Assembly (NCBI GenBank): GCA_012841375.1
Contig: DUUV01000078.1
Span: 1-54,882, forward strand
Origin: Candidatus Fermentithermobacillaceae bacterium
Lineage (GTDB): Bacteria; Bacillota; Sulfobacillia; Fermentithermobacillales; Fermentithermobacillaceae
Reading direction: 5' to 3'
DNA length: 54,882 nucleotides
The notes beneath the pieces were generated by a model. That model ran no database searches, was not told the DNA's origin, and was given only the letters and a program-made list of their open reading frames with translations. Below, piece after piece: positions 1 to 26,640 of this stretch; position 1 is the first letter of the stretch, and each line of letters begins with the position of its first letter. Made by a program: the position numbers and the translations under genes.

Positions 1-109
1 TCAACAACTTGGCTTGCGGCGGGACCTTGATAACATGAATTTCCAGATGAACCGGGGATGCGGCTTTTCACCCACGTTCACTTGACAGTCTCGTTGAAGA
101 GTCGCTTCA

Positions 110-139
110 TTGGCACGAATAGCCAAGACAGGCTATACT
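110..139 (+). promoter_or_regulatory. Probable sigma-A promoter of the RNase J gene
   Basis: TTGGCA (110-115) and TATACT (134-139) are separated by 18 bases, so both hexamers are five-sixths consensus. Transcription would start near 146, leaving a short leader before the ATG at 161. The -35 box includes the TTG at 110 that would otherwise be read as an upstream start codon for the same frame. A TTGACA at 82-87 has no good -10 partner. Confidence 0.55.
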
Positions 140-160
140 AGTGAACTGGTGAGAAAAAAC

Positions 161-1816
161 ATGACAAGAGACGTACGTCTGATACCCCTGGGCGGCCTTG
201 GGGAGATCGGTAAGAATCTCATGATCGTCGAGACCGCCAACGATACCATCGCAGTTGACTGCGGGCTGTCGTTCCCTGAGGATGACATGCCCGGCATCGA
301 TCTGGTCATCCCCGATGTCTCCTACTTGATTGAGCGCAAGGAGCGACTGAGGGGCATAGTCCTCACTCACGGACACGAAGATCACGTGGGGGCTCTTCCT
401 TTCGTCCTGAAGGACATCAATGTGCCCGTCTACGGCACCCGCCTTACTCTGGGTTTGGCCAGGAGAAAGCTTGACGAGAACTTCGAAGGTGAGGTCGACT
501 TCCGCGTATTTGAACCGGGAGATGTAATCGATTTTGGCTCCATCCAGGTGGAACCCTTTCGCGTGACCCACTCGGTTTCCGACTCTGTAGGACTCATATT
601 GCGCACTCCTGCCGGAACCATCATACATACCGGAGACTTCAAACTTGACCAGACACCCGTTGATGGAGAGCCGACCGACTATTCCCGGCTGGCGCGCGCG
701 GGAGACGAGGGAGTGCTGGCGCTTCTCTCCGACAGCACCCACGCTGACCGCCCCGGGTTTACACCATCCGAACGGGTAGTCGGGGAGTCGCTGGACCGGG
801 TGTTCCAGAAAGCCAAGGGCAGGATCATCATTACGACTTTCGCTTCCAATGTTCCCCGTATCCAACAGGTCATCAACGTGGCCAGCCAGCACAACCGCAA
901 AGTGTGCGTCATCGGGCGCAGCATGGAGATGGTCGTCGAGGTTTCTCTCAACATGGGCTACCTCCGCGCTCCGCTGGGAACCCTTGTGGACGCGTCGGAC
1001 TTGGGCAAGTACCCCCACTCCAAGATGGTGATCTTGAGTACCGGCAGCCAGGGCGAGCCTTTGTCCGCGCTGGCCCGGATGTCGGCGGCAGAACACAGGA
1101 AGGTCGAGATCATAGAAGGCGATCTCGTGATCATGGCCGCTTCGCCGGTTCCGGGCAACGAGACCATGGTTTCAAAGGTAGTCGACAACCTGTTCAGGCG
1201 CGGTGCCGAGGTCATCTACGAGCCTGAATCGGAGGTCCACGTCTCAGGCCATTCCAGCCAGGAAGAACTCAAGGTGATGCTCAATCTCACAAGGCCCAGG
1301 TACTTTGTGCCCGTCCACGGCGAGTACCGTCACCTGATCAAGCATGCCCAGCTTGCGGTGGCCACGGGTGTTCCTCCGTCCAACGTGCTCATCGGAGAGA
1401 ACGGCGCGATCTTCTCGCTGTCGCCCGAGCACTGTGAGATCATTGGAGTCATCCAGACCAAGAACATAATGGTCGATTCCAGCGGTGTGGGAGAGATAGG
1501 AGACCCCGTTCTCAAAGAGCGCAAGTACCTAAGCGACTCAGGGGCCATCTTCGTGAGCTGCGTGGTGGCTTCGGAGACCGGCACCTTGGTGGGGATGCCT
1601 TCGGTGAAGAGCGCCGGCTTTATGAAGAGCGTGAGAGGTGAGGCGCTTCTCATGGAAGCGGCGAAACGGATAAAGGAACACTTCGACTCTTTGCCGGTGG
1701 AAGCGCTCTCGCGACGGGAGTTTATCGAAGAAGAAGTAGCTACTCTGGTCCAGAAACTCGTGAGGAGCGAGACGGGAAGACGGCCGGTGGTCATGTGTTC
1801 TTTGAGCATCCTGTAG
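161..1816 (+). CDS. rnj: Ribonuclease J
   Basis: Metallo-beta-lactamase/beta-CASP ribonuclease of mRNA turnover and rRNA maturation, with 5'-3' exonuclease and endonuclease activity in the family. With the start at 161 the protein has 551 residues, close to the usual 555. The zinc motif HGHEDH is at residues 70-75. It is followed by HTGDFKLD, the beta-CASP segments SDSTHADRPGFT and STGSQGEPLSALARM, then SGHSSQEE and PVHGEYRHL, and a short C-terminal domain. The frame stays open to a TTG at 110. I prefer the ATG at 161 because GGTGAG lies seven bases upstream and the TTG coincides with a promoter -35 box. The gene heads a co-directional run with deoB six bases downstream. Family assignment is certain; RNase J1 versus J2 is not resolvable here. 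Confidence 0.95.
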   Translation: MTRDVRLIPLGGLGEIGKNLMIVETANDTIAVDCGLSFPEDDMPGIDLVIPDVSYLIERKERLRGIVLTHGHEDHVGALPFVLKDINVPVYGTRLTLGLARRKLDENFEGEVDFRVFEPGDVIDFGSIQVEPFRVTHSVSDSVGLILRTPAGTIIHTGDFKLDQTPVDGEPTDYSRLARAGDEGVLALLSDSTHADRPGFTPSERVVGESLDRVFQKAKGRIIITTFASNVPRIQQVINVASQHNRKVCVIGRSMEMVVEVSLNMGYLRAPLGTLVDASDLGKYPHSKMVILSTGSQGEPLSALARMSAAEHRKVEIIEGDLVIMAASPVPGNETMVSKVVDNLFRRGAEVIYEPESEVHVSGHSSQEELKVMLNLTRPRYFVPVHGEYRHLIKHAQLAVATGVPPSNVLIGENGAIFSLSPEHCEIIGVIQTKNIMVDSSGVGEIGDPVLKERKYLSDSGAIFVSCVVASETGTLVGMPSVKSAGFMKSVRGEALLMEAAKRIKEHFDSLPVEALSRREFIEEEVATLVQKLVRSETGRRPVVMCSLSIL

Positions 1817-11760: not shown

Positions 11761-12738
11761 TTGCCTGCCAACTTGGGACCCCTCTACCACGTGGCCGAAG
11801 AGCGTTACCGGCAGGCCATAACCGATGAGGAGAAGATGGCTGCCCTGGAAGAGATGATGGCCACCATCCCCAAACACAAGGGGACCGAGAAGATGCAGGC
11901 GGACATCAAACGCCGCATCGCCAAACTCAAAGAAAGCATGAAGGGCGGCACCAAGGGTCCCAGGCGCAGGGAGTTTTTCCGCATCGACAAGGAAGGCGCA
12001 GGCCAGGTAGTCCTGGTTGGGCCTCCCAATTCAGGCAAGTCCTCGATGCTCAAGAGGATGACCCGTGCCGTCCCGGAGGTAGCCGATTACCCGTTTACGA
12101 CCCGTATGCCGCTTCCAGGCATGGCTCAGTGGGAGAACGTGCAGGTACAGCTCATCGACATGCCCCCGATCGCGCCGGAGACATCCCAGTCCTGGGTATG
12201 GGCGCTCCTCCGGATGTCTGACGGGCTCCTGGTTGTGCTTGACGCAGGCGATGACGATGTCCTTGACCAGACCGAAAACCTTTTCTCATTCATGGAAGAG
12301 AACAACGTGTTCATAAAGAATGACGGCGAACAGGGTTTCAAAGAAAAGAAGGCCATTTGCGCCGCAAACAAGTGCGACATGCCCGGGGCAAGCGAGAGGA
12401 TCGAACTCCTCAAGGAGGTAATTGGGGACAAAATGGACATCGTTCCCTGCTCGACGGCGACGGGCGAAGGGCTCAGTCTTCTCCTCTCCAGAGTGTTTTT
12501 CGAAGTGCTGGGGAGAATTCGCGTCTACACCAGACCTCCAGGAAAGAAGCCTGACTTCTCGCAGCCGTTCATACTTGACAGAGGCACCACCGTCATCGAC
12601 GCGGCTCGCGAAGTCCACAAAGAGATCGCCGAATCGCTGAAGTACGCCAGGGTATGGGGGAAAGGCGTGTTTGAGGGCCAGATGGTACCACGTGACCATG
12701 TCCTGAGCGACGGTGACGTGATTGTGTTCTACACGTAA
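11761..12738 (+). CDS. DRG/OBG-like GTPase with TGS domain
   Basis: Predicted ribosome- or RNA-associated GTPase. The N-terminal 70 residues form a basic helical region of the DRG type (KHKGTEKMQADIKRRIAKLKE). The G domain follows, with P-loop GPPNSGKSS and guanine motif NKCD. A C-terminal TGS domain (from about residue 255) ends in LSDGDVIVFYT. The G3 motif reads DMPP rather than the usual DxPG. The TTG start has a good SD (GGAGGTGA). A GGGGCTTAGCCCC hairpin lies about 30 bases upstream. The ATP-grasp gene follows four bases after the stop. The molecular role of bacterial members is poorly known. Confidence 0.85.
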   Translation: MPANLGPLYHVAEERYRQAITDEEKMAALEEMMATIPKHKGTEKMQADIKRRIAKLKESMKGGTKGPRRREFFRIDKEGAGQVVLVGPPNSGKSSMLKRMTRAVPEVADYPFTTRMPLPGMAQWENVQVQLIDMPPIAPETSQSWVWALLRMSDGLLVVLDAGDDDVLDQTENLFSFMEENNVFIKNDGEQGFKEKKAICAANKCDMPGASERIELLKEVIGDKMDIVPCSTATGEGLSLLLSRVFFEVLGRIRVYTRPPGKKPDFSQPFILDRGTTVIDAAREVHKEIAESLKYARVWGKGVFEGQMVPRDHVLSDGDVIVFYT

Positions 12739-12742
12739 CGCC

Positions 12743-15397
12743 ATGCAGCCGAGAGAGCTTGTACTCCGGATATTGCGTCTGAACCTCATACCCGCTCCCA
12801 GGGTGATCGCGCCCGGACCTGCCACCGAGTTTCCCGTTTTGCACGTAGACGCGCAAGGTTCCGGGCGGGTTGTGAAGACCTTGGACGAGGCCAGGGCCTT
12901 ATCCCAAGCCGTGGCAGGCGTCTCGAGAGACCGGAGTGCCGGAGATTTCTTCAGCGAGATCCTCCCCATAGAAGAAACGGCCGAGGTGGCCGTGTCGGGC
13001 CTTGCAGGCGAGTGGCACCGCATGAGATGCGGCACATCTCAACCGGAGCGTGTGAAGGCCATTTCTCTGGCGGTGCGGGCGACTTATGCGCTGGGTCTTT
13101 ACCGGGCCCTCGTAACCATCGGTTTCGGGCCCGGCGGGCCATGGGTGGTCCACGTGGAACCCGGGAATCCCGAAGGGTGTCGGAGTCTCAATGGAACGAG
13201 ACAACTAGACTCTCGCATCCGGTTTCTGGGGGCGAGAGCAGAGTATATAGCCGTTGACCCGCGGACCGGCAGAGGCCTCGACGAATTCTTTGACGTTTGG
13301 GTTAAGCCGGATGGCGAGCCGGCTCTTCCTCTCGCCGGAGAGGTTGCTCCCGGCGGCGATTGGCGTACTCCGCCGGCAACCTACCTGTGGATCTCGTCAC
13401 CCGTGCCGCGCCGGGATATGCCTCTTTCCACGAGGTTCATGTTTCAAGGAGAGCCCAGCTCCGGATTCCTGCGCGCTCTTGACAGATCCGTCGCCGTGCT
13501 GGGGATGATGGTCTGCCGGCCCGATGACGTGCGGGAACGTAATGGGACCGGAGAGGGGCTTCTCGGGTCCTACCGGGTTACCGGCGAGGGCTCGTTTGAA
13601 TACACGACGGTACCCAGCCTCCTCTGGAGCCCCCGGGCGATGAGGCGGGTCTGTGAGGCCGTGGCCGGTGAGGTCGAAAGATACAACGGGGCCCAGGGAG
13701 CCGGAGCATGCATTGAGAATGGAACCCCGGGCACCGGGTCGGCTGCACGTCACGGGGATCCCGGTGAGATGGGCAAGTTCAAGGGAAAGCATGAGATCTG
13801 GTCCTCACACCTGGAGAGGCTCTACCGGTGGCAACGCGCCTATTATCACGCCGACAAGACCTTCTTTTCCGTCCCTCCCTGCCTTCCACTGGACTCTGCG
13901 CCGGGCGGTGATTTTCGACCTCTTTGGGGGTTGGATGCGCCCGCGTTCAGCGACTCATGCGTGACGCTCGGGACCGACATTGTCTCCGCCGGCCACAAGT
14001 CCCAGGGGAAAGGCGTGATGGTAAGAGCGGGGGTCCGTTCCGCCTTAGTGGAGTGGGAAAACGTGCTGAGCCCGGACGTCCTCGAAGCAGACGATTTCAA
14101 CGGCGGAACCTCTGCCTGGGCCCCGGCGACCTTGATCCGCCCCAATCCGACGGCGGCGCGCACGCTCACGCTTCCGGAAGGTGCAATCTTGAGGGCAGAC
14201 GTTACCTCGAACGTGCGGTGCCTGCGCGTGGGTCCGATCATAGGGATCATGGCTCCCAGACTCGGAAAAGGCCAGAGGTTCGGCATTGAGACCGACCGGT
14301 TCAGGCACATGGTCCGGCTCGGCGCCGAAATGGGTCTCTTGGTGTACGTGTTTTTCCCGGAACCTGCTCCCGGTGAGGGCCCCACTTTGGACCCTGTTGC
14401 CGGCTTTGTGAAAGGCTGGACCCACCGGGACCGCCGCGGCTGGTCGGCAGAGTGGCTGCCTCTCCCCGATGTGGTTTACGACCGTCACATACCGGACCCA
14501 GTGACAGGCGGCGCGAGAGATGTCGCCCAAGAGTTCTCCGGCGCTTGCCCGCAAGCGGTGTTCATCAACTCTCTGCCGCTCGTGCGATTGTGCAGAGACA
14601 AGCTTATGACTCATGACGTCTTGTCCGGCGTCCCTGAAATCGCGGCGCACCTGCCCGTCACAGAGGCGGTCAGAGAGGCGTCTCAGGCCGCGCGTTTTGC
14701 CTCTTTTCGGCGAAGAGCCTTTCTGAAACTACGTGGCGGCACCGGCACCAAAGGACTCGCGCTCATCGAGAACCTGGGCTCCCGGTACCGGATCACCAGG
14801 CGCGAAAAGGGCGCTCCGCCCAGAGTGGACGAGGTTCAGGGACAAGCCAGTCTCTTGAGATTCCTCTCGGACGTCCTCCAAATACCTGCCCCGGGGACTC
14901 CCCCGAGGCGCGAACCGTGCCCGGAGTTCATCATCCAAGAGGGGATAGACTTGGCGCCCCTCCCGGAAGGTGCAGGCAGCGCATTTGAAGTGCGGGTTGT
15001 GTATCAGAAAGGTGGAGCGGGCGTCTGGTTGAGGACCGGCATGGTCGTCCGCGCCAATCCCGAAGCCGAGGGCTTTGTGCTGCCCGGCGTGGAACTCCAC
15101 CATAGGGTCGGTGATTTCCTTGAACTGGCGCTGCCCGGCAGAGTAAACGAAGTGAAAGCGGCGGTGAGGCGAGTGGCCAGGATGATCCCCCCCGTATTGG
15201 AGCGGCACTCGGGCCGGGGAGGGGAGATCTCGGTTGATTTCGGGATAGACAGGAACGGGAAGCCTTGGCTTATCGAAGTGAACTCGAAACCCGCCACGCT
15301 GTTTAGGGATATCGGCGCCTTTGAACTCAGGAAGCTGACTCTACTCCGGGTCCTGAACTACGCCGTCGCTCTGCACCGGGAACTCCGTGGCATCTGA
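12743..15397 (+). CDS. Multi-domain amidoligase: COOH-NH2-ligase-like region plus YheC/YheD ATP-grasp
   Basis: About 884 residues, with three regions as I read them. Residues 1-150 resemble the tail of an ATP-grasp domain (YALGLYRALVTIGFGPGG, then HVEPGNP). Residues about 155-330 look like the glutamine-synthetase-fold COOH-NH2 ligase seen in phage and Firmicutes amidoligases (FLGARAEYIAVDPRTGR, then SFEYTTVPSLLWSP). From about residue 485 a complete YheC/YheD-type ATP-grasp follows (GPIIGIMAPRLGKGQRFG, PDVVYDRH, FLKLRGGTGTKGLALI, ISVDFGIDRNGKPWLIEVNSKP). YheC/YheD proteins are linked to the spore coat, which suggests a spore-former. The frame opens at TTG 12722; I prefer ATG 12743, four bases after the GTPase stop. 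The substrate is unknown. The ATP-grasp call is firm; the middle-domain call rests on remembered motifs. Confidence 0.75.
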   Translation: MQPRELVLRILRLNLIPAPRVIAPGPATEFPVLHVDAQGSGRVVKTLDEARALSQAVAGVSRDRSAGDFFSEILPIEETAEVAVSGLAGEWHRMRCGTSQPERVKAISLAVRATYALGLYRALVTIGFGPGGPWVVHVEPGNPEGCRSLNGTRQLDSRIRFLGARAEYIAVDPRTGRGLDEFFDVWVKPDGEPALPLAGEVAPGGDWRTPPATYLWISSPVPRRDMPLSTRFMFQGEPSSGFLRALDRSVAVLGMMVCRPDDVRERNGTGEGLLGSYRVTGEGSFEYTTVPSLLWSPRAMRRVCEAVAGEVERYNGAQGAGACIENGTPGTGSAARHGDPGEMGKFKGKHEIWSSHLERLYRWQRAYYHADKTFFSVPPCLPLDSAPGGDFRPLWGLDAPAFSDSCVTLGTDIVSAGHKSQGKGVMVRAGVRSALVEWENVLSPDVLEADDFNGGTSAWAPATLIRPNPTAARTLTLPEGAILRADVTSNVRCLRVGPIIGIMAPRLGKGQRFGIETDRFRHMVRLGAEMGLLVYVFFPEPAPGEGPTLDPVAGFVKGWTHRDRRGWSAEWLPLPDVVYDRHIPDPVTGGARDVAQEFSGACPQAVFINSLPLVRLCRDKLMTHDVLSGVPEIAAHLPVTEAVREASQAARFASFRRRAFLKLRGGTGTKGLALIENLGSRYRITRREKGAPPRVDEVQGQASLLRFLSDVLQIPAPGTPPRREPCPEFIIQEGIDLAPLPEGAGSAFEVRVVYQKGGAGVWLRTGMVVRANPEAEGFVLPGVELHHRVGDFLELALPGRVNEVKAAVRRVARMIPPVLERHSGRGGEISVDFGIDRNGKPWLIEVNSKPATLFRDIGAFELRKLTLLRVLNYAVALHRELRGI

Positions 15398-19560: not shown

Positions 19561-20697
19561 TCATGAGGACGGGGTTTCTCCCTGTCCGGACGTCTCCGCG
19601 ATATCGCCCATATCAGATATGAGCCTGCGGGTTTCAGGAGGATAGTCGTCCAGGATCATGTTGATCGTCATCTCGGGGCGTTCGTAAAGAGCAATGTCAG
19701 TCGCCCGGTGTATGCCGGGGCCGCTGACTATGCGGACCACGGGCCTGTGATTCGCCCGCGGGTCCTGTTTTACCACAACTCCGACGTATCCGCCCCACAG
19801 CGACAAGATGGTGCCGGTGGGATACAGCGCGACCCGCTTGAACATGGCCTCAACCATGTCTCCGTCAAACAAAGTCCCCCGCTTCTCCATAAGGAACGCC
19901 TGTACCGCTTCAGGCAGGACCGCACGGCGCTGGGGCCTGTCGGCCGTCATAGCCTCGTACACGTCGGCCACCGCAACCATCCGCCCGAAGTCGGTGATGC
20001 TGTCGCCTTTGACCTGCCTGGGGTATCCCGAACCGTCCAGCCTCTCGTGATGGTCCAGCGCCGAATGGGCGATGACCGGCCCGATGTTGTAGCACTGCTG
20101 GAGCAGTTCGAAGCCTTTCATCGAATGGGTCTTCACCAGGTCGTACTCTTCGTCGGTCAAGAGCGCCGGCTTGTTTATGATGTGCTTGGGGATAAGCACT
20201 TTGCCTACGTCGTGAAGCAGAGCGCCCAGCCCGAGGTCTTTGAGCTGGGAGACGGACCAACCCAGGACTCCGGCGGCCGACAGACTGAGCACGCATACGT
20301 TGATGCTGTGGGTGTATGTCTCCTCATCAAAGGCGCAAAGGGAGTAGAGGCCGATGGTGGCCTTGGGGTTATCCCTTAGGTCTGCGATTATGGCATCGAT
20401 AGCGTCCTTGATCGGTCGCACGTCTCCGGGAGTGCCGCGCACGATATTTTTCATCACCGTGTCCATCACGGATATCGTCATCTGGCGGGTCTCTTCCTGA
20501 ATGGACTCGTCGATCTCCATGTCGTCGGTCAGGCTGTCTTCCAGCGCGACCCGCGTATAGCCCCGTCTGCGAAGGACATCTATGAGCACGGGGGTGAGCT
20601 TCATTCCTCTGGCAAGCATGAGGCGTCCGCCGTCGCCGTGAACCGGCATGGCAAGGCTTTCGCCTGCTAACTTGTCATGTAGTGCAACGACCCTCAT
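19561..20697 (-). CDS. HD-GYP domain cyclic-di-GMP phosphodiesterase
   Basis: Predicted to hydrolyse c-di-GMP. The HD dyad is at residues 162-163 (LLHDVGKVLIPK). The GYP signature HHERLDGSGYP is complete, as is FGRMVAVADVYEAMT. Both are diagnostic of active HD-GYP proteins. The N-terminal ~110 residues begin with a segment often found before HD-GYP domains (LARGMKLTPVLIDVLRRRGY) and carry no recognisable receiver or PAS domain. No membrane helix is visible. The ATG has GAGGAG upstream. The gene is transcribed divergently from the MFS gene; a perfect 19-base palindrome lies between them. Confidence 0.92.
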   Translation of the reverse strand: MRVVALHDKLAGESLAMPVHGDGGRLMLARGMKLTPVLIDVLRRRGYTRVALEDSLTDDMEIDESIQEETRQMTISVMDTVMKNIVRGTPGDVRPIKDAIDAIIADLRDNPKATIGLYSLCAFDEETYTHSINVCVLSLSAAGVLGWSVSQLKDLGLGALLHDVGKVLIPKHIINKPALLTDEEYDLVKTHSMKGFELLQQCYNIGPVIAHSALDHHERLDGSGYPRQVKGDSITDFGRMVAVADVYEAMTADRPQRRAVLPEAVQAFLMEKRGTLFDGDMVEAMFKRVALYPTGTILSLWGGYVGVVVKQDPRANHRPVVRIVSGPGIHRATDIALYERPEMTINMILDDYPPETRRLISDMGDIAETSGQGETPSS

Positions 20698-20860: not shown

Positions 20861-22105
20861 ATGAGATTTCAGCGTAATGCCAGTTTATATCTTCAATCGG
20901 TCTCCATGGGAGCCCTCGCCAGGGGCGCGTTCGGCGTGATACAGGGCCTCTACATACTGTCGCTGGGCTTCAGCGAAACGGTTCTGGGAACGATCCTCTC
21001 GGCCCGGATGCTGTCGGCGGCCATCTTCTCGCTGCCGGCCGGGATGTTCTCGGATAGAAGGGGCCGCAGGCCGGTGCTTGTAACGGCCGGTTTCCTTACC
21101 ACCATCGGCTACTTGGGGATGGCGATCGCTTCTTCCTCGGGGTTGATGATACTCTTCTCGTGCATTTTGGGTTGCGCCGAGGCCTGCCAGGTGACATCGG
21201 GGGCGCCGCTCCTGGCCGAATCGAGCACTTCCGAGGATAGAGGGCGGCTTTTCGGCGTGAACTTCTCGTTGTCCATGGGAGTCAACATGGTAGGGAGCCT
21301 CTTGGGTGGGTTTCTTCCGCGACAGCTCCGGTCGTTGGGGATGGTCAGGTCGTACAGGCTTTCGCTGGCTCTGTTCTCCCTCGTCACCCTTCTGGGCGTC
21401 ACTCCGACCCTGAAGATGAAGGAGGAGAAGAAGTCAAGAGCCGGCGCAGCTGAGCTCATAGGCGGGGCGGGAGATGAGATACGACAACTTGTCCAGACCG
21501 CTTCCAGCCGGGCAGTATGGAACCTACTGTTCTACAATGTCCTCATTGGGTTTGGGGCAGGGATGGTGATCCCGTATTTCAACGTGTTCCTGACCAGGAA
21601 ATTGGGTGTCGAGTCTGACTTGGTGGGCCTCATACTGTCTCTCAGCCAGGGCGCCACCGCCGTCGCGGGTCTCATCGCTCCTATCCTGGCCAGGAGATAC
21701 GGTACGGTTGCCACGGTGGTTGGCACTCAATTGGCTTCCATCCCGTTCCTGCTCCTCATCGCCTTGCCGCCCAACGTATACTTGGTCTCATTTGCCCTGT
21801 TCATGCGCTCGGCCCTCATGAATATGTCCAACCCGGTGGCCTCAGGCTTTTCCATGGAGATCGTAGACGCGGAGAAGAGGGGCAAGATGTCGAGCCTCAT
21901 GCGCATAGCCGACAACGTGACCAGGTCGGCCAGCGCCGTCGTGGCCGGGTACGTCATGGCCAACTGGAGCTACGAAGTGCCTTACTTCTTTACCGCCATC
22001 CTCTATGTACTGGCGAGCGTCATATACTGGCGCGCATTTCGGCACTGGAATCGTGAGGACCGTGTCTCTTCCAGGCGAGCCGCGGATGCCGCCGGCGCCC
22101 AGTAG
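20861..22105 (+). CDS. Major facilitator superfamily transporter
   Basis: A 414-residue, strongly hydrophobic protein with the MFS motif A GMFSDRRGRRPVLV between the second and third helices and a charged central loop (KMKEEKKSRAGAAE) separating two halves of about six helices. A second motif-A-like segment (GLIAPILARRYG) occurs in the C-terminal half. The substrate is not identifiable; multidrug or sugar exporters look similar. No SD lies close to the ATG; the nearest GGAG is about 27 bases away, so initiation may be weak. The gene ends just before an independent promoter. Confidence 0.88.
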   Translation: MRFQRNASLYLQSVSMGALARGAFGVIQGLYILSLGFSETVLGTILSARMLSAAIFSLPAGMFSDRRGRRPVLVTAGFLTTIGYLGMAIASSSGLMILFSCILGCAEACQVTSGAPLLAESSTSEDRGRLFGVNFSLSMGVNMVGSLLGGFLPRQLRSLGMVRSYRLSLALFSLVTLLGVTPTLKMKEEKKSRAGAAELIGGAGDEIRQLVQTASSRAVWNLLFYNVLIGFGAGMVIPYFNVFLTRKLGVESDLVGLILSLSQGATAVAGLIAPILARRYGTVATVVGTQLASIPFLLLIALPPNVYLVSFALFMRSALMNMSNPVASGFSMEIVDAEKRGKMSSLMRIADNVTRSASAVVAGYVMANWSYEVPYFFTAILYVLASVIYWRAFRHWNREDRVSSRRAADAAGAQ

Positions 22106-22138: not shown

Positions 22139-22168
22139 TTGACATTCCCTGGAAGGTCAGGATATGAT
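22139..22168 (+). promoter_or_regulatory. Strong sigma-A promoter for the riboswitch operon
   Basis: TTGACA (22139-22144) matches the -35 consensus exactly. After 18 bases comes TATGAT (22163-22168), five-sixths of the -10 consensus. Transcription would start near 22175, just ahead of the riboswitch, giving a leader of about 385 bases before the first start codon. Confidence 0.75.
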
Positions 22169-22189
22169 AAGACATACGTTTAGCAGTGG

Positions 22190-22330
22190 GTAGTACGCCT
22201 GATCGCTGAATCTCCTGGATTTGGAGAGCGGGGGACCCAATCGTTCAGGGGCTAATCGCAAAGCGTAGGGCCAAACCTTTTCGGCCCGAGCCCGTCAGCT
22301 AACCTCGTAAGCGTGGAGAAGGAAGACGGC
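22190..22330 (+). ncRNA. c-di-AMP riboswitch (ydaO/yuaA type)
   Basis: The conserved blocks of the ydaO/yuaA aptamer appear in order. These are ATCGCTGAATC (from 22202), GGGGGACCCAAT (22230 onward), CAGGGGCTAATC, a GGGCC/GGCCC hairpin (22268-22286), then the hallmark GCCCGTCAGCTAACC (from 22290) followed by TCGTAAGCGT and GAAGGAAG. This class binds cyclic di-AMP and usually turns expression off when c-di-AMP is high. Regulated genes are often concerned with potassium, osmolytes or cell wall. Here it heads a Ddl-like ligase, opine dehydrogenase and B12-protein operon. A covariance-model search with the ydaO family would confirm the exact ends. Confidence 0.93.
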
Positions 22331-22558
22331 TACGTTCGGCGGCTATTCCCGCCCCCTCGTCTTCCCCCAAGGCAGTAACTGCGTGCCATTTGGTGTGTCC
22401 GGGATCTTTTGCTGATCTCCGTGAGTCTCTGCGCGGGGTCACTCTATGCCTGCAGCCGGAGACGCGCAGAGGCACGGTATCCGCTTGTCCAAACAGTGAA
22501 GCTCAGGCGACAGCATACCTTGAACCCACTGCCTCGAGTTTTCAAGGAGGAGAGGCCC
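22331..22558 (+). other. Long leader between riboswitch and first gene
   Basis: 228 bases without a convincing gene. They contain several possible expression-platform stems: GGAAGACG (22321-22328) pairing with CGTCTTCC (22358-22365), a GGCA/TGCC hairpin followed by ATTT (about 22371-22391), and an eight-base CTCTGCGC/GCGCAGAG stem (22427-22434 with 22464-22471). None has a long T-run, so control by a weak terminator, Rho, or translation is all possible. The frame of the next gene is open from 22409, but the good SD is at 22543-22549. Confidence 0.5.
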
Positions 22559-23533
22559 ATGCGTGTATGCGTCATAACGGCGCCCACCGGTGATTGTCCG
22601 CTCAACCGGTACGATCCTCACGCCCGTGAACAGACGAGCCGGACAAGGGACGCGGTAGTGAAGAGCCTTAAGGAGCTAAGCTATGAGGTGAGCGTCATCG
22701 AGGCAGGGCCGTCCATGCTCTTGGACATAGAGAGCACGAAACCGGAGGTACTGGTGAATCTCGCTACGGGGTATCGCTCAAAAAGAGACCAGGCGAACGT
22801 AGCGGCGATGTTGGAACTAACTGACATCCCTTTCACCGGCCCGACGGCTCACGGTCACATCGTCGGACTGCACAAGCATTTGGCCAAGATGGTCATGAAT
22901 ACCGTGGGCGTACCGACGCCACCGTTCCGGGTGGCTTTTGGCGAAGGAGACCTAAATGACGGTCTGACTCAGGGACTCAAGTTTCCAGTCATCGTGAAAC
23001 CCGCGGCCGAGGGTTCCAGCGTAGGCATCACGACTGACAGTGTGGTTGCTGATCACTCGGGAGCGCTCCGGGTAGCATCCGAAGTGCTAAGGGACTTTGG
23101 GCCACCGGTCCTTGTGGAGGAGTTCATCTCCGGTCGGGAATTCACGGTCGCTCTTTTGGGGTACCCCAGGCTCAAGGCCTTGCCTGTTGAGGAAATCATT
23201 TTCAAAGAGGGTACCATGTACACCTACGGAGTCAAGGCGCGTGACAACGTCACCGTCCGGTGCCCGGCCGACATCCCCGGAGATCTGGCGGCTTCTCTGC
23301 AGGCTATGGCCGTGAGAGCGGCCTCGGCAGTAGGGTGCAGAGACGCGGCGAGAGTGGATATCCGCCTTACCGGTGACGGGGTCCCCTATGTGCTTGAGGT
23401 CAACACCCTACCGGGCATGATGCCCGATTACAGTGAGTTTCCACGCATCGCGGCGGAGGTCGGCATTTCGTACACGGAGATCGTGAAGACCCTTGTCGAT
23501 GGAGCGATCAAGAGAGCGGCGGGAGACGATTGA
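22559..23533 (+). CDS. D-alanine-D-alanine ligase-like ATP-grasp ligase
   Basis: ATP-grasp carboxylate-amine ligase of 324 residues with the Ddl arrangement: FTGPTAHGHIVGLHKHLAK, the ATP-binding PVIVKPAAEGSSVG, VEEFISGREFTVALLG, and the C-terminal DIRLTGDGVPYVLEVNTLPG metal-binding stretch. The Ddl omega-loop region YGVKARDNVTVRCPAD is recognisable. The usual substrate loop after LPGM reads MPDYSEFP instead of the typical T.xSxxP, and the N-terminal region is divergent, so the product may not be D-Ala-D-Ala. The start is ATG 22559 (AAGGAGG nine bases upstream) rather than the open frame to 22409. First gene under the c-di-AMP riboswitch. It makes an ATP-dependent peptide-like bond; the substrate is unknown. 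Confidence 0.85.
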   Translation: MRVCVITAPTGDCPLNRYDPHAREQTSRTRDAVVKSLKELSYEVSVIEAGPSMLLDIESTKPEVLVNLATGYRSKRDQANVAAMLELTDIPFTGPTAHGHIVGLHKHLAKMVMNTVGVPTPPFRVAFGEGDLNDGLTQGLKFPVIVKPAAEGSSVGITTDSVVADHSGALRVASEVLRDFGPPVLVEEFISGREFTVALLGYPRLKALPVEEIIFKEGTMYTYGVKARDNVTVRCPADIPGDLAASLQAMAVRAASAVGCRDAARVDIRLTGDGVPYVLEVNTLPGMMPDYSEFPRIAAEVGISYTEIVKTLVDGAIKRAAGDD

Positions 23534-23632
23534 CCCGAGACCCGACAGGCGCCGGTGGATTTCCACAAACATTTGCGGTGAGACCCAGGGATTTTATTGA
23601 GCCCAAGAAGACAAGAGAAAGGGGGCAGTCAA

Positions 23633-24757
23633 ATGGCAGAAGAGCTGCACATTGACACCGGTCTGGACAAAGCGGACTTCACCATCATAGGAGCAGGCAA
23701 CGGAGGCACGGCAATGGCCGGATATCTGGCCATGCGTGGATATGTCGTCAACCTGTGGAACCGGTCGGCGAAGCCGATTCATGACATAGAGACATGCGGT
23801 GGCATATTCCTCGAAGGGGAGATCAGAGGAGCCGCCATCCCGAACAAAGTGACAACGGACATAGGAGACGCTGTGGCAGGCGCATCCGTGATAATGGTGA
23901 CGGTACCTGCTTTCGGCCATGAGACCGTAGCGCGCCTCATGGCGCCCCATCTGAGCGATGGACAGATTGTCGTGCTGAATCCCGGCAGGACCGGAGGAGC
24001 CCTTGCCTTCCGTGCCACCCTTTGGAGGGAAGGGTGCACATCCTCGGTAACCGTAGCCGAGGCAAACACCTTTGTATATGCAAGCAGGACTGTGGGAGCC
24101 GCCCGTTCACATGTCTTCGGCATCAAGAAGACGGTGAGCGTAGCCGCTCTTCCTGCCACGAGGACCATTGACGTGGTGAGGGCTTTGAGGCCGGCGTTCC
24201 CTCAATTTGTGCCGGTTGAGAACGTCATGGTCACCAGCCTCGACAATATGGGCGCCGTGTTCCATCCTGTGCCGGCTCTCTTGAACGCCGCCAGGATCGA
24301 CGCGTCGGTCCCGTTTGAGCATTACACAGACGGTATCACGCCAAGGGTGGCATCGGTACTCGAGGCTCTCGACGCCGAGAGAGTAAGTATAGCAGGCGCT
24401 CTGGATGTGCCTGTCAGGTCGGCTCTGGACTGGCTGCGTGAGACGTACGGCATTCGAGCCGACAATCTGTACGACGCCATCCAGGCCAACAAGGCTTACC
24501 ACGGTATATCGGCTCCTACTTCGCTCAATTGCCGTTATATCACCGAGGACGTGCCCTACAGCCTCGTTCCCATGCTCTCATTGGCCCAGGTGGCCGGCGT
24601 CAAGACGCCTGCTATCCGGGCAGCCGTGAACTTGGCGTCGGCCCTTACGGGCGAAGACTATATAGCCGAAGGCCGCAATGCCGCGAGCATGGGGATAACC
24701 GGCATGGCCGGCTCGGAGCTGACCGAACACGTGGTTCAGGAGGTGTGGCAGGGATGA
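23633..24757 (+). CDS. NAD(P)-dependent octopine/nopaline dehydrogenase family protein
   Basis: A 374-residue two-domain dehydrogenase. The N-terminal Rossmann fold begins with TIIGAGNGGTAMAGYLAMRG (about residues 17-36). The C-terminal opine-dehydrogenase helical domain has SLDNMGAVFHPVPALLNAARID with the conserved HP and N, then RYITEDVPYSLVPM, which matches the family pattern. Opine dehydrogenases reductively join an amino group to a 2-oxo acid; some members act on other metabolites, so the substrate is open. The start at 23633 has AAAGGGGG upstream and beats the open frame to 23597. The TGA stop overlaps the next ATG (ATGA), showing tight coupling to the B12-type gene. Confidence 0.85.
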   Translation: MAEELHIDTGLDKADFTIIGAGNGGTAMAGYLAMRGYVVNLWNRSAKPIHDIETCGGIFLEGEIRGAAIPNKVTTDIGDAVAGASVIMVTVPAFGHETVARLMAPHLSDGQIVVLNPGRTGGALAFRATLWREGCTSSVTVAEANTFVYASRTVGAARSHVFGIKKTVSVAALPATRTIDVVRALRPAFPQFVPVENVMVTSLDNMGAVFHPVPALLNAARIDASVPFEHYTDGITPRVASVLEALDAERVSIAGALDVPVRSALDWLRETYGIRADNLYDAIQANKAYHGISAPTSLNCRYITEDVPYSLVPMLSLAQVAGVKTPAIRAAVNLASALTGEDYIAEGRNAASMGITGMAGSELTEHVVQEVWQG

Positions 24758-26511
24758 GTACAAAGGCCGGGACTCGTACGGGCAAGGGTTTCGAGGCGAA
24801 GAGAGGCAAGAGCATCCTGGGCGCATCCATGGGTGATTGCGTGCATGTGGCAGGAGTGCTCAACTTCTTGAGGCTGGCAGAGAGTCAAGGGTACTCGACC
24901 GAATTCGCCGGAACCGCCGTGTCACCGGAAGAGCTCGCCGCGCTGGCGAAGAGAAAGAGACCGGATTACCTGGCAGTGGGGTACCGGCTGGACCCTGAGG
25001 GCGCCAGGCACCTCATAAGGAGACTGAAGTCCGCCCTCAGTGCAAAGGACGCGGCTCCGCTGCTCCTCTTTGGGGGGACGCCTCCGGTGGCGGAGGTGGC
25101 CAAGGAAGAGGGAGGTTTCGACGCCGTCTTTTCCGGGAAGGAAGACATCGACGAGATCATCGCTTACCTGAGAGGAAAGCCTGTCTTGCGGGACATCCCC
25201 AGGTATCCTGACACCCTAGGCCAGCGGATTCAGTGGAAGGAGCCGTACCCGATTCTGAGGCACCACTTCGGGCTTCCTTCTGTGGAGAGAACGGCCGAAG
25301 GTATCAGGCAGATCGCTGAGGCGGGCGTCTTGGACGTGATCTCTCTGGGGCCCGATCAGAACGCCCAGGAGAGGTTCTTCCACCCTGAGGAGATGGACCA
25401 CGATCAGGACGGAGCCGGCGGGACGGCGATACGGTCTAGAGAAGACTTTGAGAAGCTGTACGCGGCCTCCCGGACGGGCAACCATCCTCTAATGAGGTGC
25501 TACAGCGGGACGCGCAACGTCATCCGTTTCGCTCGCCTCTTGGCGGAGACGATCAAGAATGCGTGGGCTGCCATCCCTCTTACCTGGTACAACGTTCTGG
25601 ACGGGCGGGGTCCAAGATCCGTCGTCCGGTCGATAGCCGAAGGTCAAGAGGCCATGGCTTGGCACGCCTCAAAGGGGATCCCCGTAGAGGTCAACGAGTC
25701 TCACCATTGGAGCTTGAGAGACGCTCCCGATGTGGTGGCGGTAGCGGCTGCCTACCTGGCTGCATACAACGCCAAGAAGGCCGGGGTCGGCGAATACGTG
25801 GCCCAGTTCATGTTCAACACCCCTCCCGGCACCAGCCCTGCTATGGACCTGGGCAAGATGCTGGCCAAGGCCGGACTCATAGACTCCCTTGCCGGAGAAG
25901 ACTTCAGGGTGTACCGCCAGGTAAGAGCCGGATTGGCCAGTTTCCCCATCGACCTTGACCAGGCCAAGGGGCACCTGGCCCTTTCTACGACCGTGTCCAT
26001 GGCGCTCAGGCCCCACATTCTACACGTCGTGGGCTACTGTGAGGCCGACCACATTGCCGGCCCGGCAGAGGTCATCGAGAGTTGCCGGATCGCCAGGGGT
26101 GCTATCCGCTCCTGTCTGCAAGGTATGCCTGATATGGCCCAAGACGATTCCGTTGTGGCCAGGCGGGACGTTTTGATGAGGGATGCCCGGGTCCTCCTGG
26201 ATGGAATCGCCGAGGTTCACCGTCTTTTGCTGTCAGGAGTGATCCCCGTCGATAGGAGGGCCGGCTATCTGGAGGTCGGACCGGATCCTTTCACTGACCC
26301 GGTCACCTTGGCTACCGCCATCGGACTGGGGCTCTTGGACGCTCCCCATCTGAAGGGCAATCCCAGCGCCTGCGGAGAAGTCGTGACGGCCATAGTGGAC
26401 GGCGCCTGTGTGGCAGTGGACCCCGTAACGCGGAATCCTGTTCCCGAAGACGTGCGCGTCGAAAGGATACTTGATGTGTTCAAGAAGAGACGGGCAGTGG
26501 AGGCCAGGTGA
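24754..26511 (+). CDS. Cobalamin-binding-like domain fused to a mutase-like TIM barrel
   Basis: 585 residues. Residues 20-150 look like a B12-binding Rossmann domain: the region GDCVHVAG (28-34) keeps the HxxG of DxHxxG with the aspartate one position earlier than usual, followed by FLRLAESQGY and a FGGTPP loop near 115. The remainder resembles the barrel of glutamate-mutase-type enzymes (SLGPDQNAQERFFHPEEM, CYSGTRNVIRFARLLAE, PVEVNESHHWSLRD, FMFNTPPGTSPAMDLGKMLAKAG, VVGYCEADHIAGP). A carbon-skeleton rearrangement or a related radical reaction is a reasonable guess, but I cannot name the substrate. The ATG overlaps the preceding stop and has AGGAGG upstream. An upstream in-frame extension to 24529 lies wholly inside the dehydrogenase gene and is rejected. 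Last gene of the riboswitch operon. Confidence 0.65.
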   Translation: MSTKAGTRTGKGFEAKRGKSILGASMGDCVHVAGVLNFLRLAESQGYSTEFAGTAVSPEELAALAKRKRPDYLAVGYRLDPEGARHLIRRLKSALSAKDAAPLLLFGGTPPVAEVAKEEGGFDAVFSGKEDIDEIIAYLRGKPVLRDIPRYPDTLGQRIQWKEPYPILRHHFGLPSVERTAEGIRQIAEAGVLDVISLGPDQNAQERFFHPEEMDHDQDGAGGTAIRSREDFEKLYAASRTGNHPLMRCYSGTRNVIRFARLLAETIKNAWAAIPLTWYNVLDGRGPRSVVRSIAEGQEAMAWHASKGIPVEVNESHHWSLRDAPDVVAVAAAYLAAYNAKKAGVGEYVAQFMFNTPPGTSPAMDLGKMLAKAGLIDSLAGEDFRVYRQVRAGLASFPIDLDQAKGHLALSTTVSMALRPHILHVVGYCEADHIAGPAEVIESCRIARGAIRSCLQGMPDMAQDDSVVARRDVLMRDARVLLDGIAEVHRLLLSGVIPVDRRAGYLEVGPDPFTDPVTLATAIGLGLLDAPHLKGNPSACGEVVTAIVDGACVAVDPVTRNPVPEDVRVERILDVFKKRRAVEAR

Positions 26512-26600
26512 CCCGGTACAGGGTACCGCAGGCCAAGGCGAGCGCCGGAGTAGTAACCGGGACGCAAGGCACTCCCGCTCCTGGTCCGGATTGAGAAGAG

Positions 26601-26640
26601 AGAACAGGCAACCTGGACCGGGTTGCCTGCTCTTTTCGTT
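26601..26640 (+). terminator. Rho-independent terminator of the riboswitch operon
   Basis: A CAGGCAACC/GGTTGCCTG stem (26605-26613 with 26621-26629) is extended by AGA/TCT and followed by TTTTCGTTGTT. It lies 90 bases after the stop of the B12-type gene and before the convergent S9 peptidase, so it closes the operon that starts at 22175. Confidence 0.85.

Follow-up and report, generated by a model that had tools for sequence, protein, structure and literature searches.

In glutamate mutase, structures assign the binding of glutamate to an arginine claw (R66, R100 and R149) and Glu171, and MutL serves as the enzyme's reactivase. Control of an osmolyte isomerase by a riboswitch has been described in Dehalobacter, where a cyclic di-adenosine monophosphate (c-di-AMP) OFF switch sits on an osmolyte aminomutase gene, and an aptamer followed by a terminator hairpin is the architecture described for such switches (PMC9337991). 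Among opine dehydrogenases, Telek et al. reported that hot-spring enzymes termed mODHs accept L-Asp, L-Glu and cysteic acid as partners of pyruvate, with kinetics that mostly favour NADPH, and that a double mutation at ArODH positions 111 and 198 switches preference between phenylalanine and aspartate (PMC10787698). Here we describe an operon in which a c-di-AMP riboswitch precedes genes for a Ddl-like ligase (LIG), an opine dehydrogenase (ODH) and a putative adenosylcobalamin (AdoCbl) mutase (MUT), located in a 54,882-nucleotide stretch of a Candidatus Fermentithermobacillaceae genome (GCA_012841375.1, contig DUUV01000078.1; hereafter, the window). We consider it somewhat probable that this operon, repressed by c-di-AMP, makes an acidic opine that is rearranged and amidated and acts as an osmolyte or as a counter-ion to K+.

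Results

A conserved operon behind a c-di-AMP riboswitch

All elements of the operon lie on the forward strand, beginning with a sigma-70-type promoter (TTGACA-18-TATGAT, 22139-22168) that agrees with the consensus at 11 of 12 positions and is a consensus match only. A covariance-model search placed a ydaO/yuaA c-di-AMP aptamer (RF00379) at 22194-22327, at 85.3 bits (gathering cut-off 38; E = 1.6e-18) and with a full-length match to the model (1-134 of 134); it is the sole Rfam match in the whole window. The leader with the expression platform (22328-22558) ends in the Shine-Dalgarno-like AAGGAGGAG and is followed by LIG (22559-23533; ATG start, 324 aa) and, after 99 nt, by ODH (23633-24757; ATG start, 374 aa), which overlaps MUT (24754-26511; 585 aa) by ATGA. 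An intrinsic terminator (26605-26640), with an 11-bp stem (26605-26629) and a T-rich tail, closes the unit. An earlier, sequence-only reading of this DNA had named the riboswitch class and located promoter, aptamer, genes and terminator correctly, as confirmed by consensus scan, Rfam and open reading frames; its description of three tightly spaced genes holds for the ODH/MUT overlap but not for the gap between LIG and ODH.

A search of the GTDB genomes with MUT as the query returned 78 loci, whose hosts include Candidatus Fermentithermobacillaceae (85% identity), Thermoanaerobacter, Thermoanaerobacterium, Caldanaerobacter, Thermosediminibacter, Fervidicola, Tepidanaerobacter, Halanaerobiales, Tissierellia, Fusibacter, Formimonas and Armatimonadota, among others; when relatives were searched whole, 46 of the 61 genomes of the class carried the gene. 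ODH stands directly 5' of MUT in 70 of the 72 loci complete enough to judge (68 recognized by script, plus L023 and L076, in which ODH overlaps an over-extended MUT frame), the exceptions being L008, with no ODH nearby, and L058, where ODH is convergent. The aptamer holds the same place in relatives' operons: a survey with a covariance model derived from ten aptamers located a riboswitch directly upstream and on the correct strand in 36 of the 64 loci with enough upstream sequence, and just upstream of 31 of 47 standard operons in the 61 relatives, the two sets being drawn from partly overlapping genomes. Since c-di-AMP riboswitches number roughly two per 2-Mb genome, these associations cannot be due to chance, which we estimate at well under 1%. 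Judged on this evidence, the operon is real and widely conserved.

A crude scan of the 37 riboswitch-bearing leaders detected a terminator hairpin with a T-run 3' of the aptamer in 28, of which a few are loose matches and about 23 have in common a compact stem with CTATRG at its core. In the window, the expression platform folds no more stably than shuffled sequences (z = 0.83), and no intrinsic terminator was found in the leader between the aptamer and LIG, so that the leader there does not reveal its mode of control.

Several loci depart from the usual arrangement. L094 (G058, contig 58) has tandem ODH-MUT copies, each with its own c-di-AMP riboswitch, and a LIG-like gene between them. An ODH-MUT pair without a riboswitch lies near the start of a contig binned as the Methanomicrobia archaeon JdFR-19 (L026:2552-5324), which reflects either an archaeal occurrence or a binning error. 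A conserved protein of about 136 aa without a Pfam match occurs 3' of MUT at L039:7900-8310 and at six other loci, mostly of the Tissierellia type.

Other genes preceded by c-di-AMP riboswitches in MUT-bearing genomes encode the trehalose synthase OtsA, glycine-betaine transporters (OpuA/OpuAC), an amino-acid permease, a cell-wall hydrolase and a peptide-type importer, and this set of targets has the makeup of an osmoadaptation regulon. In genome G042, a riboswitch precedes OtsA (trehalose-6-phosphate synthase) and a probable phosphatase (L192:782-2446, reverse strand); to judge from this arrangement, trehalose synthesis is there under direct c-di-AMP control. In G025, a further ODH and a class III aminotransferase of the putrescine/acetylornithine type lie under their own riboswitch without MUT (L194:1301-2509; 1-1158, reverse strand). 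An acetyltransferase-like protein with no Pfam match stands directly under a c-di-AMP riboswitch at L169:1953-2594 and L175:1952-2593 (reverse strand), both in genomes whose operon is of the MutL-fusion type described below.

An opine dehydrogenase with acidic-substrate determinants

ODH has the octopine/nopaline dehydrogenase fold assigned to it in the earlier reading. It matches PF02317 (Octopine_DH; E = 2.7e-46), its best match in the PDB is ArODH/CENDH (1bg6; E = 2.5e-86), and its NAD(P)-binding Rossmann motif is conserved (G20/G22/G24). The catalytic dyad H211/D306, aligned with H212/D329 of octopine dehydrogenase (OcDH), is invariant in 90 of 90 sequences, and R301, aligned with OcDH R324, is likewise invariant in 90 family members. 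R119 (89 of 89 ODHs) and G207 (90 of 90) correspond to ArODH positions 111 and 198, where mutagenesis showed an Arg/Gly pair to select acidic amino acids (PMC10787698). Because this pair matches the determinants of a preference for Asp or Glu with pyruvate, which were tested in homologues and from which the substrates are predicted, the product of ODH is most likely an N-(1-carboxyethyl) acidic amino acid. An N-R-S/T motif at positions 43-45, whose N-R signature (N43-R44) recurs in 81 of 89 ODHs, points to the use of NADPH.

A glutamate-mutase-like barrel with an altered pocket

The N-terminal B12-binding domain (PF02310) is present in 48 of 48 MUT members; the cobalt ligand His31 and Gly34 are invariant, and a nearly invariant C29 replaces the canonical Asp, so that the motif reads CxHxxG instead of DxHxxG. 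Beyond this domain, Pfam and NCBIfam give no match for the barrel of the window's MUT. The top fold match of its AlphaFold2 (AF2) model (pLDDT 88.8) is glutamate mutase E (Foldseek, 1e-15), followed by lysine 5,6- and ornithine 4,5-aminomutase, and superposition on the GlmE TIM barrel (1cb7_B) gives a Z of 33.3 and a root-mean-square deviation of 3.0 over 374 residues, in keeping with the cobalamin-type mutase proposed from the sequence. Profile-profile comparison aligns MUT with GlmE only weakly (E = 1.9e-4, probability 48%).

Residues were mapped between the two enzymes through a joint MAFFT alignment that included the MutL-fusion forms, the structural alignment serving as a check on the overall range only. 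In this mapping, MUT retains D96, Y177 and E330 of glutamate mutase (as D201, Y279 and E430), and the arginine claw is replaced by H171, Q205 and Y250, none of which varies among the MUT and fusion sequences. Glu171 has become a small residue across the family (A272 in the window), and new invariant arginines, R169 and R248, stand two residues before former Arg positions. Because the glutamate-binding arginines are replaced, MUT is predicted to be an AdoCbl-type mutase of the glutamate-mutase fold whose substrate is other than glutamate. The loss of the claw and of Glu171 rules out a true glutamate mutase.

Five genomes carry a variant operon in which a distant second ODH (about 29% identity) is followed by a MUT fused to MutL (1220-1355 aa), in the order B12 domain, MUT barrel, MutL (L090:5938-9597, L089:3825-7559, L091:5234-9301, L092:6206-10018 and L093:6317-9979); c-di-AMP riboswitches are absent nearby. 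At L095, MutL directly precedes ODH-MUT; in the window it is not adjacent. The fusion or adjacency of MutL in these relatives supports real radical chemistry. A PduO or CobA adenosyltransferase occurs in 44 of 46 MUT genomes but is frequent in MUT-less genomes too (tables compared by eye), and this co-occurrence is a matter of consistency only.

LIG and its AsnB counterpart

LIG matches the C-terminal ATP-grasp domain of Ddl (PF07478; E = 5.5e-43) and falls below the NCBIfam Ddl cut-offs (182.7 vs 243). Both Ddl substrate motifs, GGRSGEHEVS (with E15) and LHGxxGEDG, are absent from every LIG, whereas each of the eight putative true Ddls compared has them, among these a separate Ddl of the window's own genome. 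This excludes an ordinary Ddl and marks LIG as a putative carboxylate-amine ligase for a substrate other than that of Ddl. Elsewhere in the window's genome, beside a lon-like gene, lies another Ddl-like paralogue with 39% identity to LIG (contig C25, L231:2997-4034, reverse strand), which is distinct from the true Ddl.

The position of LIG varies: it is part of the operon in the window's family, stands downstream of MUT or divergent in others, and in three genomes (G041, G042 and G060) is alone behind its own c-di-AMP riboswitch. In G042 and G060 it is followed by an SBP_bac_5 importer gene that is 67% identical to a riboswitch-controlled importer of the window's genome. Directly 3' of MUT, Thermoanaerobacter and Caldanaerobacter (Thermoanaerobacteraceae), Armatimonadota and several unrelated lineages have instead an asparagine-synthetase (AsnB) homologue, and at L077 an AsnB homologue lies under its own c-di-AMP riboswitch. 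In four of the homologues 3' of MUT (L055, L064, L065 and L066), the glutaminase Cys2 is replaced by Gly (MGGIA), as would be expected if the amine donor were other than glutamine. On the MUT tree, linkage to LIG and linkage to AsnB each require at least five gains or losses; the LIG label of row L025 is doubtful, that gene possibly being a true Ddl. That two unrelated ATP-dependent amide-forming enzymes take up the same slot is suggestive of an amidated product. Joint conservation, on which the sequence-only reading had made its idea of a system depend, is strong for ODH and MUT and only partial for the ligase, which is encoded within the operon or next to it in fewer than half of the loci and in other cases is replaced by AsnB or found elsewhere under its own riboswitch.

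Neighbouring genes in the window

Just 5' of the promoter lies an MFS transporter gene (20861-22105, forward strand) that is not among the recurrent neighbours of ODH-MUT, and two genes upstream of the operon is an HD-domain protein resembling c-di-GMP phosphodiesterases (19561-20697, reverse strand). Further upstream, an 891-aa protein (12722-15397, forward strand) has a YheC/D-like ATP-grasp domain confined to its C-terminus.

Discussion

The riboswitch, the gene set and its conservation, the enzyme classes and the loss of Ddl and glutamate specificities can be read from the sequences themselves. For the exact substrates, the order of the steps, the product, the direction of control in the window and the osmotic role, we infer the following scheme. 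At high c-di-AMP, the riboswitch would turn the operon down, and a fall in c-di-AMP, upon osmotic upshift or at low K+, would allow expression. ODH would then condense an acidic L-amino acid (Asp, Glu or a close analogue) with pyruvate and NADPH into an N-(1-carboxyethyl) acidic opine, and MUT, as an AdoCbl radical mutase with a re-laid pocket, would rearrange the carbon skeleton, either that of the opine as a whole or that of the amino acid within it. LIG would activate a carboxylate with ATP and cap it with an amine, a step for which AsnB-type enzymes would provide an equivalent amidation in other lineages. The outcome would be a zwitterionic or anionic derivative of an opine, small and polar, which the cell would retain as an osmolyte or to balance the charge of K+; the peptide- or opine-like osmolyte guessed at in the sequence-only reading is supported.

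Several observations weigh against this scheme. No riboswitch was detectable at 28 of the 64 loci or in any of the five MutL-fusion operons, and the window's clade has no terminator that would mark c-di-AMP as a repressor rather than an activator. The replaced Arg and Glu residues of MUT are mapped through a remote alignment of about 14-19% identity, and the R119/G207 determinants come from tests on homologous enzymes, not on the window's ODH. A ligase partner is absent from the neighbourhood in 49 of 72 loci, and the AsnB of Thermoanaerobacter exceeds the NCBIfam threshold set for ordinary asparagine synthase B and could do no more than supply asparagine.

As an alternative, the tricarboxylate opine made by ODH and MUT could itself be the osmolyte and K+ counter-ion, with LIG and AsnB serving a neighbouring branch such as asparagine or peptide synthesis. 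The loci with ODH-MUT only, which form the majority, the AsnB of L019, which scores as an ordinary AsnB, and the acidic-substrate determinants in ODH (PMC10787698) all fit an uncapped product; we nevertheless regard it as unlikely, given that LIG and AsnB homologues recur beside ODH-MUT or under their own riboswitches in unrelated lineages and that the glutaminase Cys is missing from several AsnB homologues, a loss suggestive of a different function. The operon might alternatively make an unusual building block of the cell wall or envelope that LIG joins to a peptide, c-di-AMP control then reflecting a role in the wall. Such a role, also raised in the sequence-only reading as an unusual wall amino acid, could explain the Ddl C-terminal fold of LIG and the cell-wall hydrolase among riboswitch targets of the same genomes. 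It is rendered distinctly improbable by the missing Ddl substrate motifs, by the peptide-type importer gene that follows LIG in two genomes and by recurring neighbours (clusters read by eye) among which no Mur-type ligase, flippase or racemase was recognized; the trehalose, glycine-betaine and peptide-type importer regulon favours osmoadaptation instead. To a fermentative or catabolic unit, in which ODH is a redox sink or opine degrader and MUT feeds amino-acid skeletons into fermentation, we assign an equally low probability. The hosts are mostly anaerobes, the known invertebrate opine dehydrogenases are redox sinks and glutamate mutase is a fermentation enzyme, but the NADPH-type signature of most ODHs, c-di-AMP control, the company of osmolyte genes and an ATP-consuming third step speak against such a unit.

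A staphylopine- or pseudopaline-like opine metallophore, to which the sequence-only reading had seen a partial analogy, would have in common with this operon the opine-dehydrogenase fold and, in the window, an upstream MFS gene. That analogy has turned out weak: the window's genome (97.8% complete) has no match to the nicotianamine synthase family (PF03059), on which ground a staphylopine-type route was rejected, the neighbours include no conserved exporter, and that route includes no step for a B12 mutase, all of which makes a metallophore very improbable. Hardly credible at all is the idea of an ordinary D-Ala-D-Ala ligase whose operon merely carries unrelated genes along: it could point to the PF07478 match of LIG but is contradicted by the sub-threshold Ddl score and by motifs absent from every LIG and present in the eight Ddls, in agreement with the earlier view that this gene is Ddl-like without being an ordinary Ddl.

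The c-di-AMP-repressed synthesis of an amidated acidic opine, were it confirmed, would extend the control exerted by c-di-AMP in anaerobes, which in many cases are thermophilic or exposed to salt, beyond K+ and betaine uptake to the synthesis of a new opine-type solute. It would also enlarge the small set of reactions catalysed by known AdoCbl carbon-skeleton mutases, and opine dehydrogenases, which have attracted study chiefly as biocatalysts, would gain a physiological role. We propose only tentatively that opine formation, a new AdoCbl mutase acting on a secondary-amine opine, and amidation together may form a new and widespread pathway, in anaerobic Bacillota and others, to a new class of osmolytes that a c-di-AMP riboswitch controls directly. 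Cultured hosts exist in Thermoanaerobacter, Caldanaerobacter and Thermoanaerobacterium, and the idea is directly testable in them.

Comparison with known systems

In the open-access literature searched, we found no description that joins these operon elements, although a bare gene listing in the supplement of Nelson 2013 is still possible; the pathway and the mutase subfamily appear to be undescribed, and the enzyme families and the riboswitch class are already known. Relative to Ddl, LIG shares the C-terminal ATP-grasp catalytic domain and has lost the N-terminal substrate motifs. MUT shares with the glutamate mutase system GlmES/MutL the B12 domain, the TIM-barrel fold, the equivalents of D96, Y177 and E330 and, in relatives, a MutL/GlmL partner, but differs in being a single fused chain with the B12 domain first, in the replaced claw and Glu171 and in the Cys of its DxHxxG motif. 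ODH has the same fold and dyad as ArODH/CENDH (1bg6), which prefers apolar amino acids and NADH, and the fold, dyad and Arg/Gly acidic-substrate determinants of the mODHs, for which the accessible part of the report gives neither genomic context nor physiological role (PMC10787698). Staphylopine and pseudopaline synthesis likewise use an opine dehydrogenase; the present system differs in the absence of a nicotianamine synthase and in its B12 mutase and c-di-AMP control. N-acetylglutaminylglutamine amide synthesis (TIGR03104) offers a functional analogy, in that an AsnB-like amidation forms part of an osmolyte route; the AsnB homologue falls far below its cut-off (295 vs 570 bits), and that route involves neither opine nor B12 chemistry. 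Finally, the nearest precedent, the lysine 2,3-aminomutase of Dehalobacter, which is controlled by a c-di-AMP/Na+ riboswitch and leads to N-epsilon-acetyl-beta-lysine (PMC9337991), is likewise an isomerase in the route to an amino-acid-derived osmolyte, but it is a radical-SAM aminomutase rather than an AdoCbl mutase, acts without an opine dehydrogenase and serves a different product.

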